Shown one piece after another: positions 7,778-22,779 of a stretch of DNA of 22,779 bases. Under the pieces are notes generated by a model that saw only the letters and a list, made by a program, of their open reading frames with translations, searched no databases and had not been told where the DNA came from. Each line of letters opens with the position of its first letter. Within the stretch, counting starts at the first letter, position 1. A program made the translations under genes and the position numbers. The DNA lies in the IMG/VR virus record IMGVR_UViG_3300023109_000155, positions 1-22,779 of that record; one strand, given 5' to 3'. This DNA is from a virus.

Positions 7778-7963
7778 ATGAAAAATTTAAAAAGAGATGG
7801 AAACAGTGGAGCGGTGTTAAACACAGATGCAGCTGCGCTGAATAAATATAAAGTAGAGCGATCCTATTATAGAAAAGTAGATAAACTACAAGACGATATT
7901 TTAGAAATCAAAAGAAGTATAATATCCATTTATGAGCGAATAGAAAAGCTGGAAAATAAGTAA
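7778..7963 (+). CDS. Small conserved coiled-coil protein (61 aa)
   Basis: A short but convincing gene, 10 nt after the DUF4815 gene, with an AAGG site at the end of the upstream gene. Its stop TAA (7961-7963) overlaps the ATG of the next gene by one base, so the two are probably translationally coupled. The N-terminal half has a polar motif RDGNSGAVLNTD followed by ALNKYK. The C-terminal half (about residues 25-61) is a charged heptad-like helix with hydrophobic residues at V34, L37, I41, I44, I48, I50, I54 and L58, consistent with a coiled coil. Small proteins with this LKRD..SGA.LNTD start occur in marine T4-like phages as uncharacterised ORFs; this is my recollection, not a search. A chaperone or connector role for the adjacent fibre is possible but unproven. 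Confidence 0.75.
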   Translation: MKNLKRDGNSGAVLNTDAAALNKYKVERSYYRKVDKLQDDILEIKRSIISIYERIEKLENK

Positions 7964-9060
7964 TGGCAAAGAATATAAGCAACGTAGAAACAACAGCTAC
8001 ATTCCAACAATGGCTAGATAAAACTAATGCCTATGCTGCTGCATTCAGAACTGATGTAGTTACTACTGGAGCAAGTGATACAGTAGCTCAAGGTAATGCT
8101 GAAATTACTGGTAACTTTACAGCTGCTGAATTTTTAGGTAATGTTCGAGCCGATGCTATATCTTCTAAAACAGCTTCAGCTACAATTCAAGTAAATAGCC
8201 CATTTAAAGTTAATGGTGCATCACAAACAACTGCTACATTTTCTAACGGAACTGGTGGACAGGTTGAATTTACAAACGGCTCAATTACATGGGATGTTGG
8301 TTTAAAAGATGGTGGTGGTAATTTCCTTATTAATACCGGCACAGGTACATCTAAACTAGAGCTATCATCTGCAGGTACATTAACTGCAATTAATATGGTA
8401 GCTACAGAAAACGTTACTGCTGTCAAATTTATTGGAGATGGTTCTGAATTAACAGGTGTTGTATCATCAGTAGCTGTTAACGAACTTTCAGATGTTACAA
8501 TTACTAATGTACAAGATGGTCAGGCATTAAAGTATAGTTCAAGTGCAGGAGCATGGGTTAACGATACTGACTTTGACTCAGGTACTAATGCTGATACACT
8601 TGACAATTTAAATAGTACACAGTTTTTAAGAAGTGATGCTAACGACACATATACTGGTGATTTAACAGTTACTGGTGATATAATCCAAACGGGTGACCAT
8701 ACTATCACAGGTTTACTTAGTGTTACTGGTGAGATAAGAGCATCTGGTGATGTTATTACTGCATACAGTGCATCTGATGAAAGATTAAAAGAGAATTTAA
8801 AAGTTATTGAACAACCACTAGAAAAAATAAATGAAATTAGTGGTTACACATTTAATTATAAAGATAAACCCCGCGAGACGGTTCCGGGAGTTATCGCACA
8901 GGAAGTTGAAAAGGTTCTTCCTAACGTTGTATTTGACCACGAAAGAGATGGTGGCACATATAAAGCCGTTCGCTATGACCAATTAATCCCTCTTTTAATA
9001 GAGTCGATTAAAGAATTGAACGAAAAAGTCAATGATTTGCAAAATCAGTTGAATTCGTAA
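7963..9060 (+). CDS. Tail fibre protein with C-terminal S74 intramolecular chaperone domain
   Basis: A 365-residue fibre-like protein. The N-terminal 30 residues are helical and may attach it to the virion. Residues about 35-170 are Thr/Gly/Asn-rich beta repeats of the kind that form trimeric fibre shafts, with a FIGDGSELTGV motif near 156-166. An ELSDVTI...QDGQALKYS module (about 174-200) and a DTLDNLNSTQFLRSD...TGDLTVTGDI module (about 211-240) are common in phage fibres. The C-terminus from S271 is a peptidase S74 / intramolecular chaperone auto-processing domain: SDERLKEN with Ser271 and Lys276 as the expected Ser-Lys dyad, then PGVIAQEVEKVLP, a conserved YKAVRYDQLIPLLIE segment and a terminal coiled coil. 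In this family the domain trimerises the fibre and then cuts itself off. The start overlaps the previous stop; GGA at 7951-7953 serves as its ribosome-binding site. Confidence 0.88.
   Translation: MAKNISNVETTATFQQWLDKTNAYAAAFRTDVVTTGASDTVAQGNAEITGNFTAAEFLGNVRADAISSKTASATIQVNSPFKVNGASQTTATFSNGTGGQVEFTNGSITWDVGLKDGGGNFLINTGTGTSKLELSSAGTLTAINMVATENVTAVKFIGDGSELTGVVSSVAVNELSDVTITNVQDGQALKYSSSAGAWVNDTDFDSGTNADTLDNLNSTQFLRSDANDTYTGDLTVTGDIIQTGDHTITGLLSVTGEIRASGDVITAYSASDERLKENLKVIEQPLEKINEISGYTFNYKDKPRETVPGVIAQEVEKVLPNVVFDHERDGGTYKAVRYDQLIPLLIESIKELNEKVNDLQNQLNS
8773..9060 (+). other. S74 chaperone domain with predicted self-cleavage before Ser271
   Basis: The SDERLKEN motif begins at the TCT codon 8773-8775. 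By analogy with endosialidase and other S74 proteins, cleavage would fall between Ala270 and Ser271 and release a fragment of about 95 residues containing the terminal coiled coil. Both expected catalytic residues, Ser271 and Lys276, are present, so the domain looks intact. Confidence 0.72.
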
Positions 9061-9114: not shown

Positions 9115-12100
9115 ATGGCAAAAATTTCAGAATTACCTCCTATTACCGGTGCTAATACCAGGCCAGAGGATTTATTTGTAATTGTCAACCTTGTTCAAGG
9201 TGATGATGGTACAAGTAACATCACGAGGAAAGAACTGGTTCAAGCTATTCAGTATGAGATTTTTGACCGCATTACAATCACTGGCGGTACAATATCCGGT
9301 GTCCAAATGCGAGACTCAACTCTCGATAATGTTCGTATTGACAATTCAGATATTGAAGATACTAATTTTCTCAGAGGAACAATCCGAGATACTGAAATCT
9401 TTGATTCCACTGCTAATAACATTACGATTACCTCATCATCATTTACTGATGGTACATTAGCTGATTCAACTGGTACAAATTTAGAAATTGCTAACTCATC
9501 ATTTACTGATGGCACAATAACAGATTCTACTGGTAACAACGTAGTACTTACAAGTTCTGAACTTAATGATAGTACTGCAAACAATGTCGTAATAACAAAT
9601 TCCGAGTTTAATGATGGTACTGGAAATAATGTAACATTAACTAACTCAACTATTGATGATTCTACAATCACTGATAGTACTGCTAATAACGTAACAATTA
9701 CTCAATCATCATTTACTAATGGCACATTAGCAGATAGCACAGCTAATAATATTACCATGAGTTCATCAACGTTTGATGGTGGTCTAATTACAAATTCAGA
9801 TGGTCGTACTATGACCATCACTACATCATCTTTTGATGATGGTACTGGTTCAAATAACATATTTACAGATACTACTTTATTAAATGGTACTGCAAATAAC
9901 TTCGTAATTACTTCATCACAGCTTAATGACAGTACTGTTAATAACACAATTATTACTTCATCTGAATTTAATGATGGTACTGGAAATAATGTAGTACTGA
10001 CTAATTCAACCATTGATGATTCAGTATTTACTGATGGTACAATATCTAATACTGATTTCCAAGGTACAATGCAGAATGTTGTAGCTACTGATATGACAAT
10101 CAGAAGTTCCTCTGCAGATGGTTTATCTTCAAATAATTCAACGTTTGATAATGGCTCGATGTCAGGGTCAGTATTTGACGGTGGTACAATATCAAACTCT
10201 AACCTTGTCGACTTCGACATGGAAATTAATAAAGAGTTTGAAGCACCAATCGACGATGAAGCATTCTTTGCTGTCAAAAACGAGAGAACTGGTGAAACAG
10301 AAAAAATCAATTTTGCTCAACTTTACGATGAAGTATCTCGTAAAACACAACAAGCATTAAAAGTTAATGTAGACGCTGCATCTGGTGATGATAAAAATCC
10401 AGGTACAATGCTACAACCTGTACAAACATTAGAAAGAGCATTTGAATTATGTTTGGAAAAAGCAGGTGGTGACTTAAACAGAAACGCTATTAACAACGCA
10501 GTTCATATCTCAGTTGGACCAGGTACATACTACACTAAAGGTAATCTTATGTTACCTGATGATTGTTCTATTACTTCAACAGCTGGTCAGTATGCTACTG
10601 TTATCGAACTACTTCCTGGATACGAAAACAATAATGGTATTCTTGTAGGTTCTGGTTGTTATGCTCAAGGTTTCTCATATCAAAATTTCCAAGTTGATAA
10701 CTTTGACTTCCCAGAGGGTGGATTCGCGGTTGCTTATCGACCAGGTGCTAAACTATTACGTTCACCTTACTTAAGAGATAGTACTCAGTTATCTAACTTC
10801 TTACGACAAGATGTTGAACCACCTTTAAATCCGTATAACTCAAAAGGTACACTTGCTGACCTTGGTAGAGTATTTACATTAGAGGTTGGACTTACTGGTC
10901 AATGGGCTCAAGACGATGAGGTTGTATTCTCATCTGGTGCTATTGGTTACCTATCTTGGGACGATTCACAAGACGCATTAAAAGGACAACCTGGTGATAT
11001 TGCAACATATCGTACGATCAGAGTTCGTAACCTTAAGAATAATAAAGGATTTGCTGTCGGTGATACTGTAACTACTGAATCAGGCGGTGTTGGTGTTGTT
11101 GAATCTATCGGATTTGATGACTTCCCGAACAGAGCGGTTGGTAGAGGTGGTGGTTGTGTACTTGCAGACAGAAGAGTACTCGATACAGACTCACTATATA
11201 CCTACGTATTATGTTTTGGTTTCACACCTCGTACTCAAAACGGTTTAGGTTATGTTGCTAGAGATGGAGCTGGTGTTAACGGTATTGGTTCATTGTCAAT
11301 CTTCGTTCGTTGTGCATTCTATGCATTGAATGGTGGACAAATGACACTGAACAACTCAGGTACTCAGTTCGGTGACATCTCAATGAGAGCAAAAGGTACT
11401 ACACAGTTCTTTGCTCCTAAGTCAACTACTGCAACAATTATTGGTAATACAGCCTTTGCTGATACTATTAACGATCGTGCTGATGACATTATTGATGATG
11501 TTGTTGAATATCTAACAGCTAATACAGGAAATGGCGGATTAGATTACCAAGGATATGATTCAGAAAAATGTTTAAGAGATTCAGGTATTGTACTTGATGG
11601 CACAGGTTATGACATTGCTCTCGATACTAACTATTGGGGAAGACTTGGTGGAATTACATATAGGTCACCAATCAGTTATGTTGTACCAGGTGAACAATTA
11701 GTAGAAACAAAAGGTGCACTTGAATATCTAAGAGATAGAACAAAAGAGGTATTTAATGCTGGTAATGTAAAAATTAACGAACGTGTTGAAACATCCTTTA
11801 GCGAATTACTCAATGTATTAGAGTATGGCGAAGAGAACATGAATCCAATTATTTGGCAAGATACTACAGTTCCTCAAACTGCAGCACGTAACTTAATACA
11901 AGATAACAGAGACCTTATTACTAACGAACTTATTGATTGGATTGAAAACAATGGTGAGTTCTATGCATACGACAGTGCAGCATGCCGAAGAGATGTTTCA
12001 GATTATATTCTTCCAGCTGTTAAAAACGATATGTTGTTTGACACAAACTATAACGCGGTTACTGCAGGTAGAGCATATTATATGGCTACTGCAAAAACTG

Positions 12101-15100
12101 TTATGGAAAATCAAAATAACGAAACAGTAGCTGCATACAAAAGATTAAAAGACCAAACAAACGAATTAATTGATGGCGATTCTTATCTTGCTTCACAAAG
12201 ATTAGATGATAGCTTTGATAATATATTAGAAATCTTAGAAAACAAAGGAACACAGTTTACTCCTACTGCTGCAACTTATGACCCAGAAACTGGTCTATCA
12301 GTTATCACACTCGGCACTAAGAAAGATTTCACTCCTAGTACTGTTAACTATGACCCTGCTACAGGGATTATGACAGCAACTATTGGAAATCACAAACTGA
12401 CTACTAAAGACCATATTTGGTTTAAACCAGAAGGTCTAACATTTAGTTGTAACACTGGTTCAGGTAACCAAAACCATGCTTCACCTGAAGCACATCACCC
12501 TTACTATAACAAACCATGTCCAATTATTAGTGTAACTTCAAACACTATTACAATGAATGTGGGTGTAGGTGGTCCAACTGGTCAACAAGTACATACCTTC
12601 GTATCAGCCGTACCAAATGCTTTAACATCAGGTCACGGATTAGGAGTTGGTAGAAAAGTACTTCTAAGAACTGGTGGCTTAGTATTTACATGTGATAGAG
12701 ATAATAACGCATCACGAACAGGATATCCAAGAGCTTCTGACCCAGCTGCTGGAACACCGATTGAAGTTATTGGTGCAAATGAAACTAAGATTACAGTTAA
12801 TGTTGGTAAATCAGCAATTATTGACAAACATACATTTGTTGAAGCATTAACAAATTCAGTATCAGTATTAGGTGACGACATTCAATATAGTAATGACGTT
12901 CCTGCTAACAACGCTAATGCTAGAAAACAACTTCAGAAGAACAGAGAGTTCTTGCAAGACCTAGTTGAAGGTTATATCAATGATACCTATTTCAGATATG
13001 ATTCTGATAAGTGTCAACGTGATATTAAATCTTATATTTTACCTGCTGTTGAAAGAGATATTCTAACAGGTTCTAACTATAATGCGATTCAAACTGGTAT
13101 TGCATATAGAAGTGGTACAACACTTGCAGATAATGTTATCAATGAGCAATTGATAGAAACAACTGGTGCTATTAACGAATTAAAAACACGAGTTAACTTA
13201 AACAATACAGAGAGTGGATTCACAGTAACTGATGCAACTTACGACCCAGCTACTGGAGAGTTTACAGCAACAATCGGTACTGGACATGGTCTAGCAATCG
13301 GTGATTACATTATGTTAGCCGATAACGGTATAACATTCTCTTGTGATATGGGAAGTGGTCAACAGAATCATACTTCACCACAATCACATCACCCATATTG
13401 GCAAACACCTTGCCCAATTACTGGAGTGACTTCAACAACTATTTCTATGAATGTTGGAGATGGTGGAGCTGGACAATATCCACACACCTTCGTATCAGCT
13501 GTTGCTAATGCTATTACTCCTGCTAAAGGAGTTGGTTTAAGCTTCACTCCAACAACTGCTTCATACGACCCAACAACTGGAAGATTTGAAGCAACCATTG
13601 GTCATCACCATTTAAAAGTTGGAGATTACGTAAGGTTCTTAGCAGGTGGTGTTACATTTAGTTGTGATACAGGAAGTGGAGTTCAAAATGACTCAGTACC
13701 TGCTGCCGGACATCCTTATTATAATCACCCTTGCCCAGTTTATTCAGTAACTGCAACATCGATTGTAATGTTTGTTGGAACAGGTGGTACTAATCCTCAT
13801 ACATTTGTATCTGCATTAGATAACTCAATTATAGAAATGAGAGCAATTGATGAAAAGGCTTCTGGATTTAGAAGTAACGAAGCATTCGATAAAATTGTTT
13901 CTATTGTTAATAGTTCAAATAAAACTTACTCTACAAGTAATGCAACTTATAACCCAGTAACTGGTTTATCTGAACTTACAATTGGTTCTCACGATTTACA
14001 AATCGGCGATGAGATAATGATTGCTCCTGATAGTTTAACATTTACTTGTGCAACTGATGGTAATGCAACTCAACATACTTATCCGACTACAACGATTACA
14101 AACTTTACGCCTACTGGTGCTACATATGTACCTGAAACTGGTGTATTTACTGCAACGATCGGAGCTCATAAATTACAAATTGGTGATGAAATTGAAATCG
14201 CACCAAACAGTATTGTATTTACTTGTGCTCTTGATGGTAACCAAGTACAACATGCTGCGCCAGAGCCACATCACCCATTCTATAAGAAGAAGATTAAATT
14301 AACTGCTGTTACTTCAACAGGAATTGAATGTAATGTTGGAGCTGTAGCAAATGGCGGTGGAGTACATACCTTTGTATCTGCAATCACAAATGCTATTCAA
14401 GGTGAAAGAAAGCACCCTGCATACAAGAAAGCAGTCATAGTTGCTGCTACTACAAATACTACAATAACATTGAATGTTGGTACATCAACTGATACTTCTG
14501 TTCATACATTTGTATCAGCAACTGCAAGTAATGTTAAAACAGCTAAATATATTTCTACATATACACCAAGGACAGCTACTTATGACCCAGCAACTGGAGT
14601 CTTCGTAGCAACTATCGGTCAACATAATTTAGAAGCTGGTGATTATGTATCTATCGCACCTGAAAGCGTAGTGTTTACTTGTGCAATGGATGGTAATAGT
14701 TACGAACATGCTGTTCCACAAGGACATCACCCATTCTATAAAGTACCAGTAATGATTAACAGTATTACTGCTGATACAATTACAATGAATGTTGGTGCAG
14801 GACCTGGTGGAGCTCATACATTTGTTAGTGCTACTGCTAACTGTATTGACTCAGATGCTCTAGTATTTACTGACCCTGCATCTCATGTTAAACAGTACAC
14901 ACCAACAACTTCAACTTATGACCCAGCAACTGGTGTTTCAGTTATTACTATTCCAGGGCATGATTTAACAACTGAAGATTATATTGAGTTTACTCCTTAT
15001 AGTTTCACTTATACATGTGCTCAAGATGGTAATGCTACTGAACATTCATACCCAAGAAAAGGTGATAGTAACTACAGAACTCCAATGGCGATTACAAACG

Positions 15101-18100
15101 TTTCTGGAAATGATGTTACTGTTCAACTTGCTGTATCATCTGGTGGATTACATACATTTGTAAGTGTTGAAAAAGATGCTGTATCTAAAGTCACTTATAA
15201 CTCTCAAGGTCAATATGCTAGAGAGCAATTACAGACTAATAAAGATTACTTAGCTAAGAAAGTATCTAACTACTTAGATTCACAATACTTCGTATTTGAT
15301 GGAGCAAAATGTTCTAGAGATTCAGGATTCATTCTTGATGCTGTACGAAGAGATATTGCTACAGGTTCTAATTACCATTCAGTATTTACAGGACTTGGAT
15401 ATCAGATTGGAACTAAAGGTTCAAACGAAGTTATTACAGAACAATTAACAGAAACTGTTGCTGCAATTAACTACATGAAAGCAAAAGTTGCTGCTGACCC
15501 AAGTGTTACAGGAACTGCATTAACAAGAGCTAATACTGCATTTGATGAAATTATTGACATCATGCAGAATGGTACAGGTAATGCGAATGCTCTTACTTAT
15601 TCTGATACTGCTGCATTAACTGTTAATCATAAAACTGGTGCAGATGCATTAGTTCTTAACAGATTATTCTTACAAAAAGAAGTTACTGCTTATATTGCTC
15701 AAGAGTTCCCAACATTAACTTATAATGTTGCTGACTGTGAAAGAGATACTGGTTATCTTGTTGATGCTATTGTATGGGATGTTAAATACGGCTCGAATGC
15801 AGCTGCTATTAACTTCGCAAGACTCTATTATGAAAATGCAATTAGTGTTTTACCACAAGACCAAAAGTTACCAACTGCAAAAACTTGGGAACACATTGCA
15901 GAAGTTGCATATAATATCGTAAGAGATGTTGCTGTAACTCCTACAACAGGTAATACTCAAACTCAAGACATATCACTTACTGATGCAGGAATTGAAGTTG
16001 GTAATGCTGCAAGAGATGCGGTTAATGTAACAACTCAAATTATTAGAGATGATAGCCTAAACTCTCTACCTAAACTAGACGAAGGTAGTGTTGAAACTGG
16101 ACTTGAAACTGCAATTAATGCAATCGACGGTTTAACAGAAAATCTACAAGAAAGTGTTATTGACTACTTAAGAGAAGAGCATAACGGACTACCTTATACT
16201 AAAGCAGTCTGTGAAAGAGATGTCGGCCTTATGGTTGATGCTATATCTCGTGATATCGAATATGGTGGTAATGAGAATACATTGGAAGTGTTTGATTACT
16301 ACTTCAGAAGATTCAATTCTCAATCAGCTGATTACGAACAACAACGTTCAGTCAACGTATTACCACTTGAAGTTAAAGGTCAATTTAGAACATTATCCAA
16401 TTACGAAGATAATGCTAATGTATCTGGTTTAAGAGAAGCGATCAACGTTCTTCCATACGAACAACGTAAACCAACAAAACAAGCATTTACAGTTCTTGCT
16501 GATAATGCTGCTGAAATTGTTGCACAAATTGGTAACGGTATTATAGGAACTCAATATACTCCAACTAATGCTACTTATGACCCAGCAACTGGTGTATTTA
16601 CTGCAACAATTGGTTCTCATAACCTTGTTAAAGGTGACAGTATTTGGTTGAAGCCTGAAGGATTTGTATTCTCTTGTGATATGGGTGGCGGTGTTGCTAA
16701 CCATACTTCACCTCAAGCTCATCACCCATTCTATAACAAACCAGTAAAAATTACTGCAACAACACCAACTGTTATTACAATGAATGTTGGTGACGGTGGT
16801 TCAGGTCAATATCCACATACATTTGTTTCTGCTGATGCAAATTCAATTAGTGATGGCCCTTATCAAATTACTGATGGTACTGCTGCTTCAGTAGCAACAG
16901 GTACTGCTGTACATGACCTCATTCAAACTATTGCAGACTTAATTGATGATACTAATATTGAAACATCTCAATTACCAACATTAGTTAAAGCATCGTTTGA
17001 CCCGAACAGAACATTAGCAAGAAAGAACATACAACGTAACAGAGACTTTATCATTGAAGAAGTACAAGGATATCTCAAAGACAGATATTATGTATTCGAT
17101 GGTGACAAGTGTAAGCGTGACGTTGGTCTTATTATTGATGCTGTTAAAGCTGATGTATTAACTGGTTCAAACTTCAATGCTGTATTTAACGGACTTGCAT
17201 ATCGAATCGGTACGATCGGAGCTGATGCAGTTATTAACGAACAATTAACAGAAACTGTTTCTGCTATTAAATATGCTAAAGCTCTAGTAGTTGACGGTGT
17301 AACAGATGGCACAATGAGAGCAAAGACTGCTGAAGCATTTGATGAAATCATTGACATTATGACTAACGGTGATTCTGCTGCTGATGCAATTTCATATACA
17401 TCCAACGCGGCAAGTTCAACAAGAATTAATGGTAGAGCTCAATTACAAAATAACAAAGCATTCTTACAAGCTGAAATTACTGCTTGGTTAGCTGCTAACA
17501 GACCATCACATTCTTATAATGTTGCTAAGTGTGAAAGAGATTTAGGATATTTAATTGATGCTATCTCATTCGACGCTCAACATCGTGGAAACTTTGCAAC
17601 AATTAATGACGCTAAACTTTACTTTGAAAATGCTGTAAGTGTACTGCCTCTTGACCAAAGAGAACCTACAGCTGCTGCATTTGCACACATTGGTGATTGT
17701 GCTGAATTAATTGTACAAGACACAGATATTGCTGGACTCAAATCTTCAGGTAATGCTGAATCACAAGACTTCAGTTCAGGTTCTGCAGGAGCTGGAATCG
17801 GACTTGAAGTTGAAGGATTATTTGATATAGTTGCTAACAGTATTACAAATAATACATTACTACTTAATCCTCCAGTTGCATTCCCAACACTTGAAAACTA
17901 TGATGCTGCTAATCAATCAGCATTTGGTGAAATTGAAGCTGTTAAAGCAACAGTTCAATCTGGTGTACTGAATCACTTATCACAATACTTTGAAGTACTT
18001 CCATATAGTGAAGCGAAGTGTAGAAGAGATACTGGATATATTGTTGATGCTGTTGCTCACGATATCCAATACGGTGGTAATGCTGCTACAGTACAAACTG

Positions 18101-20331
18101 CTGGAATGTATTTTGAAAATGCAGTTAATACTGGATTACAAATCGAACAAAGAATGGGAACAAGAGATGCATTCTTACACATGGCAAAAATCATCGAACA
18201 CGTTGCTGGTGCTAAAGATATTGAAACAACTCACTTCCCAAGAACAGGAAAATATTACACTGGTGATATCGTAACTAAATACGAATACTGGAACGGAATG
18301 CATTCCTATCAAACTGCAGAAGCTCAAGATATGCATGTACATGGAGCGAATCCAAATACTTGTATAGCTGCAAGAAAACTTGTAGAGATTGTTGCTAACG
18401 CGGTTGATGATTCTAATGAAATCAGAAATACAATACCTGATCGTATTGATGTTGACCAAACTTGGATGGGCGATAACTTTATCACTGCTAAAGAGATAAT
18501 GGAAAGTCAATCACAAGTATTAGGTCATGCAGTAATTAGTTACCTATCACATGCACATAACGGACTATCATTTAGAGATGCTAAGTGTAGAAGAGATATT
18601 GGATTCTTAATTGATGCAGCATCTCACGATATTAATAATCAAACTAACTTTGCAATGCGTCAAGCTGCAGGAATTTACTTTGAGAATGGATTATCAGTAC
18701 TACCTATTGATACACGAGTACAGACTGCTGATATTTACCAATTCCTTGGAGATGCAGTTGAACAAGTTGTGCAAGAGATTGCAGTAACTAACGCAGTTAA
18801 TTACACATTAACTCCACAGAATCTTTCAGGTACAGCTGCTACAGCAACTGAAGGTGCTAGGGTACATGAATTAATTGGATATATCGAAGACGTTATTAGA
18901 GCAAATGATGTAGACGAACTACCTGCTCCAGAGTCAACTGGTACTCAATCTGCTGAATTAGTAACAGCTGCACAAAGTATTGTTGATGAAACTGAAGAGC
19001 TTGCATCTGATGTAACACAATTTATTAATAGTAGCTTCAATGTACTTGACTATAACAAAGCGAAGTGCAAAAGAGATACTGGTTACTTACTCGATGCATT
19101 CAGCTTCGACTTGAACTTTGGTGGAAACACTGCTTCAAGATGGAACGCTGATTTCTACTTCTGGAACCAAATTTACAGAATACCAGAAGACCAGAGAATA
19201 CCAACTGCTAAATCATACAGACAGCTTGGTAGAATTTGTAAAGATATTGTATTAGGTGAATATGCAAATCAAGTAGTAATTGGTGAAGTAGCAACTTCAG
19301 TTGAAAGCTTGAAAGTTGAAGAATTAGCAAATATCTTCTACAAGACTCAAGTGTTCAATGATACTAAATACTTACCAGTTAAGATTGAGCCAGACTATGC
19401 ATATTCTCAAGCAGTATTTACCGATGCTCAAGCAGTAATTGGACAAAGAAGAAAATCATTACAGAAAGATACAGTACGCTATGTAAATGCTGCATACGAC
19501 TTCATTGATATTCCATTAACAAGACGTGATGCAAGAAACTTACTCACAGCAGTTTACAATGACTTTGCTTATGATAAGTTTGACCCAGATGTTGCAGCTC
19601 CAACATACAGTGATAATGGTTCACAGAATGCTGTAAGAACATTCACTGCATCATTCTTCAATTATGACGGAACTCATGTATTCCCAGTATTTAATCCAAC
19701 AAGACAAGGATTGAAATACAAAGGTTCAGTTGAACAGTTATCTGATTTATCATCTATAACAGGAATGAAGCCAAACTGGGCATACATTGTTGCTACTGAT
19801 TACTCTACTAACTTCTACGCTGGTAATATATACTATTGGGATAATAATATTTCTGATTGGGTACTAGATGGTGCAAATAATACTGACCTTCTCGATGCTT
19901 TCGTAGGAAGCTGGAACAGAATGAGAGATTATATTGTTAATAATCTATCTCCAAACTCAGAACATAGCTTGATGGTAGAAGGTTTATTTAACGACTGTCT
20001 GATAGACAATGTTCTTAGACCACAAACGTTAATATTTGGAGCCTTGGTCGAATCCATTGCTCACCAGTTTAACGGTGCTTCTGCAGGTGTTAACAGAAAT
20101 GCATTACCTCTGAACTTTAGAAACTTAGGTTCTGCAATATCGGCTATCGCTTCTGTCCTAAATGAGGATGGTGGTAGAATTAGATGGTCGGGTGCTGACG
20201 AATTGAATAACCAGTACTTTGCAAGAGGATTACGTATTAATGGTCGAACAGGACGAATTGAAGGTAGACCATTTACATCATCTGTAAGAAAACTTGCAAG
20301 AAGAGCTTCGAACTCAAGAGCATCATTATAA
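9115..20331 (+). CDS. Giant modular structural protein (3738 aa): pentapeptide-like helix, beta-helix, nested A/B modules
   Basis: A single uninterrupted frame of 3738 codons fills half the window, preceded by AGGG 10 nt before the ATG. Domains in order: residues 1-55, a KISELPPITGA / NITRKELVQAI region of a type common at the N-terminus of phage attachment proteins; 56-367, pentapeptide-like repeats; about 419-780, a right-handed beta-helix (pectin-lyase-like) with ASGDDKNPGT; about 783-3510, eleven CxRD helical modules (A) plus one degenerate copy, with nine YDPATG/HTFVSA beta modules (B) placed in their loops; about 3510-3738, a C-terminal domain with EGLFNDCLIDNVLRP, HQFNGASAGVNRNALPLNF, RWSGADELNNQYFARGLRINGRTGRIEGR and a basic tail. 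The A and B module types resemble repeats I recall from marine phage virion proteins. No enzyme active site is evident. It probably builds part of the outer baseplate or a long fibre and may contact the host, an inference from modular beta structure and position. Confidence 0.85.
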   Translation: MAKISELPPITGANTRPEDLFVIVNLVQGDDGTSNITRKELVQAIQYEIFDRITITGGTISGVQMRDSTLDNVRIDNSDIEDTNFLRGTIRDTEIFDSTANNITITSSSFTDGTLADSTGTNLEIANSSFTDGTITDSTGNNVVLTSSELNDSTANNVVITNSEFNDGTGNNVTLTNSTIDDSTITDSTANNVTITQSSFTNGTLADSTANNITMSSSTFDGGLITNSDGRTMTITTSSFDDGTGSNNIFTDTTLLNGTANNFVITSSQLNDSTVNNTIITSSEFNDGTGNNVVLTNSTIDDSVFTDGTISNTDFQGTMQNVVATDMTIRSSSADGLSSNNSTFDNGSMSGSVFDGGTISNSNLVDFDMEINKEFEAPIDDEAFFAVKNERTGETEKINFAQLYDEVSRKTQQALKVNVDAASGDDKNPGTMLQPVQTLERAFELCLEKAGGDLNRNAINNAVHISVGPGTYYTKGNLMLPDDCSITSTAGQYATVIELLPGYENNNGILVGSGCYAQGFSYQNFQVDNFDFPEGGFAVAYRPGAKLLRSPYLRDSTQLSNFLRQDVEPPLNPYNSKGTLADLGRVFTLEVGLTGQWAQDDEVVFSSGAIGYLSWDDSQDALKGQPGDIATYRTIRVRNLKNNKGFAVGDTVTTESGGVGVVESIGFDDFPNRAVGRGGGCVLADRRVLDTDSLYTYVLCFGFTPRTQNGLGYVARDGAGVNGIGSLSIFVRCAFYALNGGQMTLNNSGTQFGDISMRAKGTTQFFAPKSTTATIIGNTAFADTINDRADDIIDDVVEYLTANTGNGGLDYQGYDSEKCLRDSGIVLDGTGYDIALDTNYWGRLGGITYRSPISYVVPGEQLVETKGALEYLRDRTKEVFNAGNVKINERVETSFSELLNVLEYGEENMNPIIWQDTTVPQTAARNLIQDNRDLITNELIDWIENNGEFYAYDSAACRRDVSDYILPAVKNDMLFDTNYNAVTAGRAYYMATAKTVMENQNNETVAAYKRLKDQTNELIDGDSYLASQRLDDSFDNILEILENKGTQFTPTAATYDPETGLSVITLGTKKDFTPSTVNYDPATGIMTATIGNHKLTTKDHIWFKPEGLTFSCNTGSGNQNHASPEAHHPYYNKPCPIISVTSNTITMNVGVGGPTGQQVHTFVSAVPNALTSGHGLGVGRKVLLRTGGLVFTCDRDNNASRTGYPRASDPAAGTPIEVIGANETKITVNVGKSAIIDKHTFVEALTNSVSVLGDDIQYSNDVPANNANARKQLQKNREFLQDLVEGYINDTYFRYDSDKCQRDIKSYILPAVERDILTGSNYNAIQTGIAYRSGTTLADNVINEQLIETTGAINELKTRVNLNNTESGFTVTDATYDPATGEFTATIGTGHGLAIGDYIMLADNGITFSCDMGSGQQNHTSPQSHHPYWQTPCPITGVTSTTISMNVGDGGAGQYPHTFVSAVANAITPAKGVGLSFTPTTASYDPTTGRFEATIGHHHLKVGDYVRFLAGGVTFSCDTGSGVQNDSVPAAGHPYYNHPCPVYSVTATSIVMFVGTGGTNPHTFVSALDNSIIEMRAIDEKASGFRSNEAFDKIVSIVNSSNKTYSTSNATYNPVTGLSELTIGSHDLQIGDEIMIAPDSLTFTCATDGNATQHTYPTTTITNFTPTGATYVPETGVFTATIGAHKLQIGDEIEIAPNSIVFTCALDGNQVQHAAPEPHHPFYKKKIKLTAVTSTGIECNVGAVANGGGVHTFVSAITNAIQGERKHPAYKKAVIVAATTNTTITLNVGTSTDTSVHTFVSATASNVKTAKYISTYTPRTATYDPATGVFVATIGQHNLEAGDYVSIAPESVVFTCAMDGNSYEHAVPQGHHPFYKVPVMINSITADTITMNVGAGPGGAHTFVSATANCIDSDALVFTDPASHVKQYTPTTSTYDPATGVSVITIPGHDLTTEDYIEFTPYSFTYTCAQDGNATEHSYPRKGDSNYRTPMAITNVSGNDVTVQLAVSSGGLHTFVSVEKDAVSKVTYNSQGQYAREQLQTNKDYLAKKVSNYLDSQYFVFDGAKCSRDSGFILDAVRRDIATGSNYHSVFTGLGYQIGTKGSNEVITEQLTETVAAINYMKAKVAADPSVTGTALTRANTAFDEIIDIMQNGTGNANALTYSDTAALTVNHKTGADALVLNRLFLQKEVTAYIAQEFPTLTYNVADCERDTGYLVDAIVWDVKYGSNAAAINFARLYYENAISVLPQDQKLPTAKTWEHIAEVAYNIVRDVAVTPTTGNTQTQDISLTDAGIEVGNAARDAVNVTTQIIRDDSLNSLPKLDEGSVETGLETAINAIDGLTENLQESVIDYLREEHNGLPYTKAVCERDVGLMVDAISRDIEYGGNENTLEVFDYYFRRFNSQSADYEQQRSVNVLPLEVKGQFRTLSNYEDNANVSGLREAINVLPYEQRKPTKQAFTVLADNAAEIVAQIGNGIIGTQYTPTNATYDPATGVFTATIGSHNLVKGDSIWLKPEGFVFSCDMGGGVANHTSPQAHHPFYNKPVKITATTPTVITMNVGDGGSGQYPHTFVSADANSISDGPYQITDGTAASVATGTAVHDLIQTIADLIDDTNIETSQLPTLVKASFDPNRTLARKNIQRNRDFIIEEVQGYLKDRYYVFDGDKCKRDVGLIIDAVKADVLTGSNFNAVFNGLAYRIGTIGADAVINEQLTETVSAIKYAKALVVDGVTDGTMRAKTAEAFDEIIDIMTNGDSAADAISYTSNAASSTRINGRAQLQNNKAFLQAEITAWLAANRPSHSYNVAKCERDLGYLIDAISFDAQHRGNFATINDAKLYFENAVSVLPLDQREPTAAAFAHIGDCAELIVQDTDIAGLKSSGNAESQDFSSGSAGAGIGLEVEGLFDIVANSITNNTLLLNPPVAFPTLENYDAANQSAFGEIEAVKATVQSGVLNHLSQYFEVLPYSEAKCRRDTGYIVDAVAHDIQYGGNAATVQTAGMYFENAVNTGLQIEQRMGTRDAFLHMAKIIEHVAGAKDIETTHFPRTGKYYTGDIVTKYEYWNGMHSYQTAEAQDMHVHGANPNTCIAARKLVEIVANAVDDSNEIRNTIPDRIDVDQTWMGDNFITAKEIMESQSQVLGHAVISYLSHAHNGLSFRDAKCRRDIGFLIDAASHDINNQTNFAMRQAAGIYFENGLSVLPIDTRVQTADIYQFLGDAVEQVVQEIAVTNAVNYTLTPQNLSGTAATATEGARVHELIGYIEDVIRANDVDELPAPESTGTQSAELVTAAQSIVDETEELASDVTQFINSSFNVLDYNKAKCKRDTGYLLDAFSFDLNFGGNTASRWNADFYFWNQIYRIPEDQRIPTAKSYRQLGRICKDIVLGEYANQVVIGEVATSVESLKVEELANIFYKTQVFNDTKYLPVKIEPDYAYSQAVFTDAQAVIGQRRKSLQKDTVRYVNAAYDFIDIPLTRRDARNLLTAVYNDFAYDKFDPDVAAPTYSDNGSQNAVRTFTASFFNYDGTHVFPVFNPTRQGLKYKGSVEQLSDLSSITGMKPNWAYIVATDYSTNFYAGNIYYWDNNISDWVLDGANNTDLLDAFVGSWNRMRDYIVNNLSPNSEHSLMVEGLFNDCLIDNVLRPQTLIFGALVESIAHQFNGASAGVNRNALPLNFRNLGSAISAIASVLNEDGGRIRWSGADELNNQYFARGLRINGRTGRIEGRPFTSSVRKLARRASNSRASL
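9280..10215 (+). repeat. Pentapeptide-like repeat helix, about 60 pentads
   Basis: Hydrophobic or small residues fall at every residue number divisible by five from I60 to F315 of the giant protein without a gap. After a one-residue slip near 320-329 the pattern continues at I329, A334, F344, M349, F354, I359 and L364. Pentads resemble S-x-F-x-D, G-T-L-A-D, S-T-A-N-N and V-x-I-T-N, with Asn or Asp at the last position. This matches a four-sided pentapeptide-type beta-helix with an Asn/Asp ladder, although the canonical A[DN]LXX sequence is replaced by Ser/Gly/Thr-rich variants. The open frames on the opposite strand here only reflect the repetitive codons. Confidence 0.72.
10369..11460 (+). 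other. Pectin-lyase-like right-handed beta-helix domain of the giant protein
   Basis: The stretch begins with VNVDAASGDDKNPGT and continues with QPVQTLERAFELC, HISVGPGTYYTKG, LPDDCSIT, then short strands ending in GGQMTLNNSGTQFGD. The order 'GDD...GT...P..TL..A' followed by 'v.vgpGtY' is the usual opening of parallel beta-helix domains in phage fibres and tailspikes. No catalytic residue set of pectate lyases is apparent, so the fold is taken as structural. Confidence 0.6.
12256..12861 (+). repeat. Nested pair of B modules (B1-inner within B1-outer)
   Basis: The outer B module starts FTPTAATYDPETGLSVITLG (12256-12327), is interrupted by a complete B module (12328-12627, from FTPSTVNYDPATG to HTFVSAVPNA), and resumes with GHGLGVGRKVLLRTGGLVFTC through HTFVEALTNSV (12628-12861). 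The two outer halves join at exactly the strand-loop where intact copies read TIG-SHNL. The pair sits in a loop of helical module A2. Confidence 0.65.
13219..13830 (+). repeat. Tandem B modules B2 and B3
   Basis: Two intact YDP-x-TG...HTFVSA modules occupy residues 1369-1467 and 1476-1572 of the giant protein. Both carry FSCD-x-GSG and a second Cys in PCP. B3 replaces the usual H-x-x-P start of the His motif with DSVP. They interrupt module A3 between its helical NELKTRV segment and the following NEAFDKIV segment. Confidence 0.7.
13927..14535 (+). repeat. Nested pair of B modules (B4-inner within B4-outer)
   Basis: The outer module runs from YSTSNATYNPVTG to FTCATDGNATQHTYP (13927-14103). 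A full inner module follows (14104-14400, FTPTGATYVPETG to HTFVSAITNAI). The outer module then finishes with KHPAYKKAVIVAA...HTFVSATASNV (14401-14535). The split falls in the His/Pro loop, where intact copies read for example EHAVPQGHHPFYKVP. This is a different point from the B1 pair. Confidence 0.68.
14560..15183 (+). repeat. Tandem B modules B5 and B6
   Basis: Residues 1816-1911 and 1927-2023. Both have the FTCA/YTCA-x-DGN subtype without a PCP cysteine. B6 diverges in the His loop (EHSYPRKGDSNYRTP). Together with the B4 pair they fill one loop of helical module A3, which resumes afterwards with AREQLQTNKDYLAKKV. Confidence 0.7.
16549..16848 (+). repeat. Isolated B module B7
   Basis: Residues 2479-2578, TQYTPTNATYDPATGVF to HTFVSADANSI. 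It is inserted in type II module A6 after EIVAQIGNGI, at the position where A5, A8 and A10 have a short Thr/Asn-rich linker. It has FSCDMGGG but no PCP cysteine. Confidence 0.7.
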
Positions 20332-20821: not shown

Positions 20822-22779
20822 ATGTCCCAATTTGGAACAATCACAGGAAAGAGCATGTTAATAGGGTTCGGTAATCCGCAACCATTTCCTATTACACTCG
20901 ATGTTGTCGCCTACGAAGGTGCAGTCGTATATGCTGATAATAATAAAGTTTATTATTCCAACGGTACTAACTGGATAGAGATTGGAGCGGGACCCCAAGG
21001 TATTCAAGGTGCAACTGGTACTCAAGGCTTACAAGGTCTACAAGGTGACTACGGACCCGGTTTTACAATTATTGGTTCTGTTGCAGATGTTGACTCTGGT
21101 GGTGACCCACAAGCTACATTAAACGGAGCATTTGGTTCTGCTAATATCGGTGATGGTGTTATTGATGAAGCTGACGATGAACTTTGGATTTATGTTGGTT
21201 CAAGTACTTGGGTAAATATTGGTAACTTTAGAGGCGTTCAAGGTTTTACTGGTATTCAAGGTACTCAAGGTGTTCAAGGTACTTTAGGTAATGAAGGTAT
21301 TCAAGGTGAACGAGGATTCCGTGGTATTCAAGGTCCTAAAGGTATTCAAGGTACACAGGGCGTTCAAGGTGATTTAGGTATTCAAGGTATCCAAGGCCGA
21401 AGAGGACCACAAGGTGTTCAAGGCATACAGGGTGATTTGGGTATTCAAGGTTTACAAGGTCGTGAAGGTCCTCAAGGAATTCAAGGCATAACTGGTATCC
21501 AAGGCGATACTGGTATTCAAGGTTTACAAGGCTATAACGGTGATGATTCTGGTCACGTTGTAGAATTTAGAATTGCAGAAGATATAACAGAAGTTGACCC
21601 AGGTACAGGTAACTTAATTCTTAACAGCTCGAATAGTCCAACAGATGATTACTCGGGTGTTACTAAAATGTGGATTGATGATGAAGCATTTTACAGTGTA
21701 AACTTAGAAGGTTTATACACACTTATTTCTCAGTCGACTGGTGCCAACAGAGGATTTATGAAAATCACTCTACGTGGTGGCCCAGACCATTACATGATTT
21801 TCTCAATCCAAGATGCTGTTGACCAAACAGGTTATTGGGAATTTGATTTAACGTTCGTATCAGGTACTGGTCAACGTGGTGACTTCATTTTAGAGAATAC
21901 TCCAAGCGCAGGTATTACAACAGTATTACCAGTTACAGTTGCATTTAGTTTATCAGGCGATAAAGGTATACAAGGTACTCAAGGCTTACTTGGTATTCAA
22001 GGAACTCAAGGAGTTCAAGGCCTTCAAGGGCGTATAGGTCCACAGGGAGTTCAAGGCATAACCGGTAGTCAAGGCGTTCAAGGCCTCCAAGGGTTATTAG
22101 GGCCTCAAGGTACTCAAGGGCCACAAGGACTACAAGGTATCCAAGGACCTCAAGGATTACAAGGAAATACTGGTGATTTTGGTGGTATTTCATACAATTA
22201 CGATTATAGTAATGATACAACAGATGCTGACCCAGGTTCTGGTAACTTACGATTCAGCTCAACAAATTTCACATCAGCAAACTTAAAACTTTATATTGAC
22301 GACGAAGATAACGGTGCAGTCAATGTAATGGACGGACTTCTTACTGAACTTGATGCACTTACAGGTTCTCCAAAAGGTTACGTTAGGTTTATTGATGCAA
22401 CAGATTATACAAGACAATTCCTAGCTCGCATTGACTTAATTACAGATAGTACTGGTTATTGGGAACTTGGAGTTACAAGACTTAACGGTGCAACATCATT
22501 TACAGATGGTGATAATTTAAGAGTAACATTCTCAAGAAACGGTGATAGAGGTTTACAGGGACTCCAGGGAATTCAAGGTACACAAGGTTTACAAGGAAGT
22601 ATAGGACCTCAAGGCGTTCAAGGAATGCAAGGTACTACTGGTATTCAAGGTACCCAAGGTATTCAAGGTATACAGGGTGAAGCAATTCAAGGTAGTCAAG
22701 GTACCCAAGGGATAACAGGTTCTCAGGGAACTCAGGGTATTCAAGGATTACAGGGTGGTACTGGTGGACAAGGTACTCA
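20822..22779 (+). CDS. Collagen-like tail fibre protein, 3' end beyond window
   Basis: Open for 652 codons to the window edge with no stop, so the C-terminus is missing. The start is supported by GGAGA nine nt upstream. Domains: residues 1-56, an N-terminal cap ending in NGTNWIEIG; 57-80, a short Gly-X-Y block; 81-136, a globular insert ending in SSTWVNIG; 138-240, a 34-triplet collagen block; 241-381, globular domain D1; 382-451, a 23-triplet block; 452-576, globular domain D2, homologous to D1; 577 to the edge, a fourth collagen block. Phage collagen-like proteins form trimeric fibres, and the globular repeats may be receptor-binding or spacer knobs. Triplets are mostly Gly-X-Gln, with Pro only in the X position. 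The frame on the opposite strand over 21945-22220 is an artefact of the repeat. Confidence 0.85.
   Translation, partial: MSQFGTITGKSMLIGFGNPQPFPITLDVVAYEGAVVYADNNKVYYSNGTNWIEIGAGPQGIQGATGTQGLQGLQGDYGPGFTIIGSVADVDSGGDPQATLNGAFGSANIGDGVIDEADDELWIYVGSSTWVNIGNFRGVQGFTGIQGTQGVQGTLGNEGIQGERGFRGIQGPKGIQGTQGVQGDLGIQGIQGRRGPQGVQGIQGDLGIQGLQGREGPQGIQGITGIQGDTGIQGLQGYNGDDSGHVVEFRIAEDITEVDPGTGNLILNSSNSPTDDYSGVTKMWIDDEAFYSVNLEGLYTLISQSTGANRGFMKITLRGGPDHYMIFSIQDAVDQTGYWEFDLTFVSGTGQRGDFILENTPSAGITTVLPVTVAFSLSGDKGIQGTQGLLGIQGTQGVQGLQGRIGPQGVQGITGSQGVQGLQGLLGPQGTQGPQGLQGIQGPQGLQGNTGDFGGISYNYDYSNDTTDADPGSGNLRFSSTNFTSANLKLYIDDEDNGAVNVMDGLLTELDALTGSPKGYVRFIDATDYTRQFLARIDLITDSTGYWELGVTRLNGATSFTDGDNLRVTFSRNGDRGLQGLQGIQGTQGLQGSIGPQGVQGMQGTTGIQGTQGIQGIQGEAIQGSQGTQGITGSQGTQGIQGLQGGTGGQGT
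21233..21541 (+). repeat. Collagen block 2: 34 Gly-X-Y triplets
   Basis: Uninterrupted Gly every third residue from 138 to 240. Twenty-one of 34 triplets end in Gln (GIQ, GVQ, GTQ, GLQ, GPQ). At DNA level the 9-mer ATTCAAGGT recurs many times, with synonymous variation between copies. Confidence 0.88.
21542..22549 (+). repeat. Duplicated globular domains D1 and D2 flanking collagen block 3
   Basis: D1 (residues 241-381) and D2 (452-576) share the order DPG[TS]GNL, [FILN]-x-S-[ST]-N, a [WY]IDDE motif, then TGYWE[FL] and a closing GD[KR]G that re-enters the collagen repeat. They are diverged copies of one domain. Between them (21965-22174) lie 23 Gly-X-Y triplets, 18 ending in Gln. Confidence 0.75.
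22550..22779 (+). repeat. Collagen block 4 with one interruption
   Basis: Gly-X-Y triplets continue from residue 577 to the window edge. The triplet pattern is broken once, at GEAIQG (about 22677-22694), where five residues instead of three lie between the register glycines. Such breaks usually kink or loosen a triple helix. Confidence 0.82.

Follow-up and report, generated by a model that had tools for sequence, protein, structure and literature searches.

A beta module nested within its own kind in tail and baseplate-type proteins of marine cyanophages

Recursive insertion of a protein domain into members of its own family is already known, and we found one precedent for it, the Si3 region of the cyanobacterial RNA polymerase beta' subunit. 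There, HABAS (sandwich-barrel hybrid motif) domains are recursively inserted in one another, with six nesting levels in Prochlorococcus rpoC2, bifurcating hosts and 8-9 domains (PMC11515920; PMC13114784). Among cyanophages, S-CREM2 has a giant long tail fibre, supported by virion proteomics (PMC10665884). We detected no copy of the beta module described here (module B) in S-CREM2, so that this phage says nothing on the virion location of B-bearing proteins. Self-nesting of B in cyanophages was not found described in the open literature, most subscription journals being outside the coverage of the search.

The window, the whole stretch of 22,779 nucleotides analysed here, is a complete virus contig without a megablast match to named phages. 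All of its B modules lie within one giant open reading frame (Table 1), the product of which strongly matches PHROG 701, 5342 and 18802 (virion structural, tail fiber) as well as PHROG 1276. All four are whole-protein clusters of cyanophage structural and tail fibre proteins, and the nesting grammar of the domains is absent from their descriptions. Neighbours of the giant gene code for a baseplate wedge, a tail fibre that has an S74 chaperone, and a collagen-like tail protein. The matches to PHROG 701 and 5342, together with the baseplate wedge and S74 tail fibre neighbours, place it among T4-like cyanophage tail or virion structural genes, and the nest-bearing proteins of relatives bear annotations of tail fibre, structural or baseplate wedge protein.

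Several other features of the contig were recorded. The giant gene is flanked at 7963-9060 and 20822-22777 by the tail fibre with the self-cleaving S74 chaperone and by the collagen-like tail protein, which carries GIQG repeats. Just upstream of the baseplate wedge gene, positions 2-682 encode the C-terminal part of a subtilase (Peptidase_S8) that also matches a tail fibre cluster and is possibly a virion-borne protease. In the N-terminal part of the giant protein (9400-10200), short imperfect repeats (ITNSEFNDGTGNN...) form an extended series that matches Pfam Pentapeptide_4. A likeness to iota-carbonic anhydrase (E about 1e-6 to 1e-5 over the whole chain, best stretch only 13 bits) was judged to be due to chance.

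Table 1. Positions of the giant reading frame and its B modules in the window; columns are those of the B profile.
Feature	Position	Strand	Residues	Remarks
Giant ORF, 3738 aa	9115..20331	+		contains all B modules of the window; virion/tail-fibre type, T4-like cyanophage relative
Nest 1, outer B, first part	12253..12321	+	1047-1069	columns 2-24
Nest 1, inner complete B with short linkers	12322..12627	+	1070-1171	profile match 1071-1170
Nest 1, outer B, second part	12628..12864	+	1172-1250	columns 22-101
Uninterrupted B between two A helices	13216..13518	+	1368-1468	profile match
Uninterrupted B, same A loop as 13216..13518	13540..13830	+	1476-1572	profile match
Nest 2, outer B, first part	13924..14103	+	1604-1663	match 1604-1658, columns 2-56, 63 bits; linker strand TTTITN
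Nest 2, inner complete B	14104..14400	+	1664-1762	match 1663-1762, columns 2-101, 152 bits
Nest 2, outer B, second part	14401..14535	+	1763-1807	match 1765-1807, columns 57-100, 29 bits
Uninterrupted B directly 3' of nest 2	14557..14847	+	1815-1911	profile match
Uninterrupted B	14893..15186	+	1927-2024	profile match
Uninterrupted B, another A region	16552..16851	+	2480-2579	profile match

The earlier note, a model's reading of the letters, had described positions 13927-14535 (residues 1605-1807 of the ORF at 9115-20331) as a B module split by a complete copy of itself, with halves that complement each other without overlap, and had proposed a comparison of the predicted folds as the check. The split and the complementarity were confirmed, and the predicted folds agree with the note. 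A profile that combines the window protein's seven uninterrupted B modules gave three ordered matches over residues 1604-1807 (nest 2, Table 1), and the two outer halves adjoin exactly, with neither overlap nor gap in model columns. With a broader profile (147 representatives, 97 columns), the rejoined outer halves scored 109 bits, versus 72 and 40 bits separately. The inner and outer modules of nest 2 are 54% identical, and seven contiguous and two reconstituted modules of the window match the full-length profile. Chance does not explain the arrangement, which is shared at 67-89% identity by about 77 orthologous loci (a few being one contig fetched twice) and at 51% identity by the locus L276.

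The fold comparison came from AlphaFold2, run on nest 2 with a 74-row alignment of the window, 27 orthologous or same-loop nests and single modules; the whole nest reached pLDDT 95.0 and pTM 0.81 (a run on the single sequence, with pLDDT 35, was discarded). Both modules are predicted to fold alike, with the same eight strands in the same order, and B is predicted to be a compact eight-stranded barrel-like domain. In the numbering of the model, the inner strands are 65-69, 74-78, 89-92, 97-101, 109-112, 123-129, 133-137 and 148-153, and the outer ones 6-10, 15-19, 30-33, 38-42 and 50-53, then 170-176, 180-184 and 194-199. The offset between inner and outer strands is a constant +59 before the insert, and the second part of the outer module follows the inner one by 46-47 residues. 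The junctions of the nest carry short strands (56-61 and 158-163), which may form a two-strand connector.

B modules occupy loops of the helical modules (A). In A units without an interruption, the helix AFDEIIDIMQNG precedes a short stretch and then the first helix of the next unit. The A loop at 13216-13830 holds two B modules in the window, one in L021, L025 and L034 and none in L045 and L276. Nest 2 and the two B modules after it are preceded by an A helix (AFDKIVSIVNS) and followed by the helix that opens the next A unit. The earlier reading of three levels, B within B within A, thus holds for B within B and for B modules in A loops. The placement of nest 2 inside the third helical module, A3, is partly supported; nest 2 may instead lie between A3 and the next A unit, depending on where the A boundary is drawn.

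We surveyed about 280 related loci and named cyanophages by iterative excision, in which complete modules are located and cut out, the flanks are joined and the search is repeated. The fetched loci contain 1131 contiguous modules, and rounds two to seven reconstituted 393, 214, 177, 17, 12 and 5 more; in the first excision run, every module reconstituted after round one spans an excision point. The loci and named phages together contain 380 nests, 118 of them distinct, with 45 at depth two, 14 at three, 45 at four, 5 at five, 5 at six and 4 at seven. In the biggest, a single outer module encloses 17 modules, and 21 nests branch, in that a host accepts inserts at more than one loop. Two of the seven-level nests were checked by eye. 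Same-family nesting, taken to be rare when this locus was first read, is therefore usual in the B family. The window itself has no nest of depth three or more; inserted B modules that are themselves hosts were seen in relatives, to depth seven. The distant relatives L276 (ORF residues 2961-3265) and L053 (1400-1702) have a three-level nest in common, with loops at columns 56 and 21.

The named phages extend this picture to isolated, independently sequenced genomes, which makes an assembly artefact very unlikely. The B family occurs in more than 320 cyanophage records (tblastn). Syn30 and S-P4 each carry a single nest that is five levels deep and holds eight modules, one of the several nests in P-RSM6 is of depth five, and depth four is reached in Syn1, Syn19, metaG-MbCM1, Sf-FP1 and Sf-CH1b. 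According to the excision parser, S-H9-2 and P-HM1 reach depth three. In P-SSM2, the gp7-annotated protein contains a nest of two levels.

Two side observations concern unusual records. A single annotated CDS of P-RSM6 (L290, record positions 103907-129628) spans 25.7 kb and more than 8500 residues, with several nests in the part that was read. Cyanophage-type nested genes were also detected in L232, L233 and L234, contigs assigned to two marine Euryarchaeota MAGs and to Nonlabens xiamenensis, the Nonlabens contig being 188 kb long; these seem to be phage contigs that were binned or co-assembled together with those genomes.

The junctions of the nests fall only in columns 21-28, 56, 67-71 and 79-85. 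Mapped by residue count to the predicted fold, these zones correspond to the loops between strands 2-3, 5-6, 6-7 and 7-8. Among the 61 distinct linear nests of at least three levels, pairing the pieces last-in-first-out outscored first-in-first-out pairing in 60, because different levels are cut at different loops. Of 428 outer modules, 409 have independently aligned halves that are complementary to within five columns; with shuffled partners the number is 153 on average and 178 at most, a figure that is high since many nests share one loop. A control with displaced excisions was not discriminating, since modules with internal gaps still pass as full-length and permuted joins arise from tandem arrays, and it was replaced by the tests of pairing order and complementarity. 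At the level of sequence, these tests establish nesting, last-in-first-out pairing and the four permitted loops.

We consider that B is very probably both an insertable cassette and a host for it, that an interrupted B folds from its two pieces and that the nests pair like brackets. Of the other explanations, an exchange of strands between inner and outer modules, which would be nested in sequence and not in fold, survives best and is nevertheless improbable. Some recursively inserted Si3 HABAS domains do exchange secondary structure elements (PMC11515920), and the likeness of inner and outer modules, at the identity given above for nest 2, makes a swap chemically possible. The preference for last-in-first-out pairing speaks against it, and swapped pieces would leave the modules incomplete; so does the AlphaFold2 model of nest 2, which was read for strand order and is of high confidence.

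A second self-nest of the window (nest 1, residues 1047-1250), absent from the earlier finding, is cut at another loop than nest 2 and bears on how the insertion of B arises. A scan of virus contigs returned about 40 orthologous loci, and a later scan added more. The outer module of nest 1 is uninterrupted in L021, L023, L025, L027, L034, L041 and L045, which read ITLGTGHGL or a close variant, while the window and most orthologues have about 102 aa between ITLGT and GHGL. In the DNA alignment, filled and empty states differ by a clean in-frame difference, and the site is also empty in the outgroup relatives L059 and L276. A tree built from residues 430-1040 implies five switches between the two states, and well supported branches force at least three. 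A gain with losses, repeated gain and recombinational exchange all fit this history. As the inner modules have the look of orthologues, a single gain with later losses or allele exchange seems the likelier course for nest 1.

The growth by insertion into loops that had been suggested for this protein is thus supported by the empty site of nest 1 in close relatives and in the outgroup. An orthologue lacking the inner copy, which the earlier note proposed to look for, exists for nest 1 (L021 and others); for nest 2, none of the related loci examined has an empty site. Nest 2 is filled in every orthologue, including L276, and is therefore older than nest 1. The nest-free relatives of the L059 type were considered as carriers of an empty nest 2 site and are not claimed as such, since their modules are not matchable one to one to the outer and inner modules.

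The order of the pieces (N-N-C-C) could also be the remnant of three B modules in a row, the first of which lost its second half and the third its first half by deletion. Tandem B modules are indeed present in the window protein and in nest-free relatives such as L059. We regard this origin as very improbable, for the two deletions would have to end at one and the same model column every time, against the complementarity found in nearly all outer modules. The outer module of nest 1 is a single uninterrupted module in close relatives and the outgroup, and this polymorphic empty site excludes deletion from a tandem array as the origin of nest 1. For nest 2, the rejoined outer modules of the window and L276 are most like each other (57%), as expected of one entity. 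Hardly any credence is due to a reading of the outer pieces as independent partial domains, or as linkers resembling B halves by chance: some C-pieces are short (about 16 residues) and have weak scores of their own, but joining raises the score above that of the better half in all 177 cases, the two halves are complementary and the fold of nest 2 is confidently predicted.

With insertion as the preferred explanation, a loop of one B would receive, in frame, an entire second B flanked by a few linker residues, and the host module would still fold from its separated pieces. Repetition of this step would produce bracket-like nests, up to seven deep and sometimes branched, in giant tail or baseplate proteins of marine cyanophages. 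Such nests may form a rigid or branched scaffold of the tail or baseplate fibre, showing many similar surfaces to the cyanobacterial host, with modules gained, lost or exchanged by recombination. We infer that B modules space out a fibre or an extension of the baseplate and offer surfaces for display; an insertion joined by two chain crossings would probably be stiffer than a tandem linker and could be branched. The wider proposal, that B is a self-inserting system building tree-shaped proteins with turnover at four loops, the deepest and most branched same-family nesting yet described, and a means of remodelling cyanophage tail and baseplate fibres, seems to us evenly balanced between holding and failing.

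Repeat proteins are usually explained by tandem duplication. The B proteins were repeatedly enlarged by insertion of a domain into itself and grow like a tree as well as like beads on a string. Filled and empty states still segregate among close relatives in a widespread group of marine viruses, and domain insertion, loop tolerance and folding with seven nested interruptions become testable in one family. Standard domain annotation misreads the nests as truncated fragments.

The predicted fold of B resembles, with modest scores, the FCCH barrel (first catalytic cysteine half-domain) of E1 ubiquitin-activating enzymes and part of a phage endosialidase. Among the best 50 structures listed in the fold search, E1 enzymes (FCCH; PDB 2v31, UBA1, UBA6) came first, with E 0.003-0.01, probability mostly 0.8-0.99 and TM-scores of 0.21-0.31 on the query and 0.41 on the 112-residue chain 2v31. 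Pfam E1_FCCH (PF16190) stayed far below the cut-off (best E 0.015, two of 15 B modules) and gave no match for the whole window protein; ubiquitin chemistry, moreover, has no place in the tail protein of a phage. Within E1, FCCH is likewise present as an inserted module. The tailspike endosialidase of phage phi92 (PDB 4hiz) was found with probability 0.99-1.00, TM-score 0.35-0.36 on the query and about 11% identity. We know of no report of self-nesting in the phi92 enzyme. As to HABAS, B has no Pfam match to it, and no RNA polymerase entry is among the top 50 structures listed in the fold search.

Taken together, the interrupted domain in the window and the inserts acting as hosts in relatives constitute recursive same-family insertion. 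Si3 and the B nests are alike in that small beta domains of one family stand in the loops of their own kind at several levels. They differ in that Si3 is one region of a conserved cellular enzyme, whereas B, apparently another family, is found in viral tail-type proteins with many independent nests. Unlike Si3, the B nests reach seven levels and 17 modules and vary in presence and absence among close relatives.
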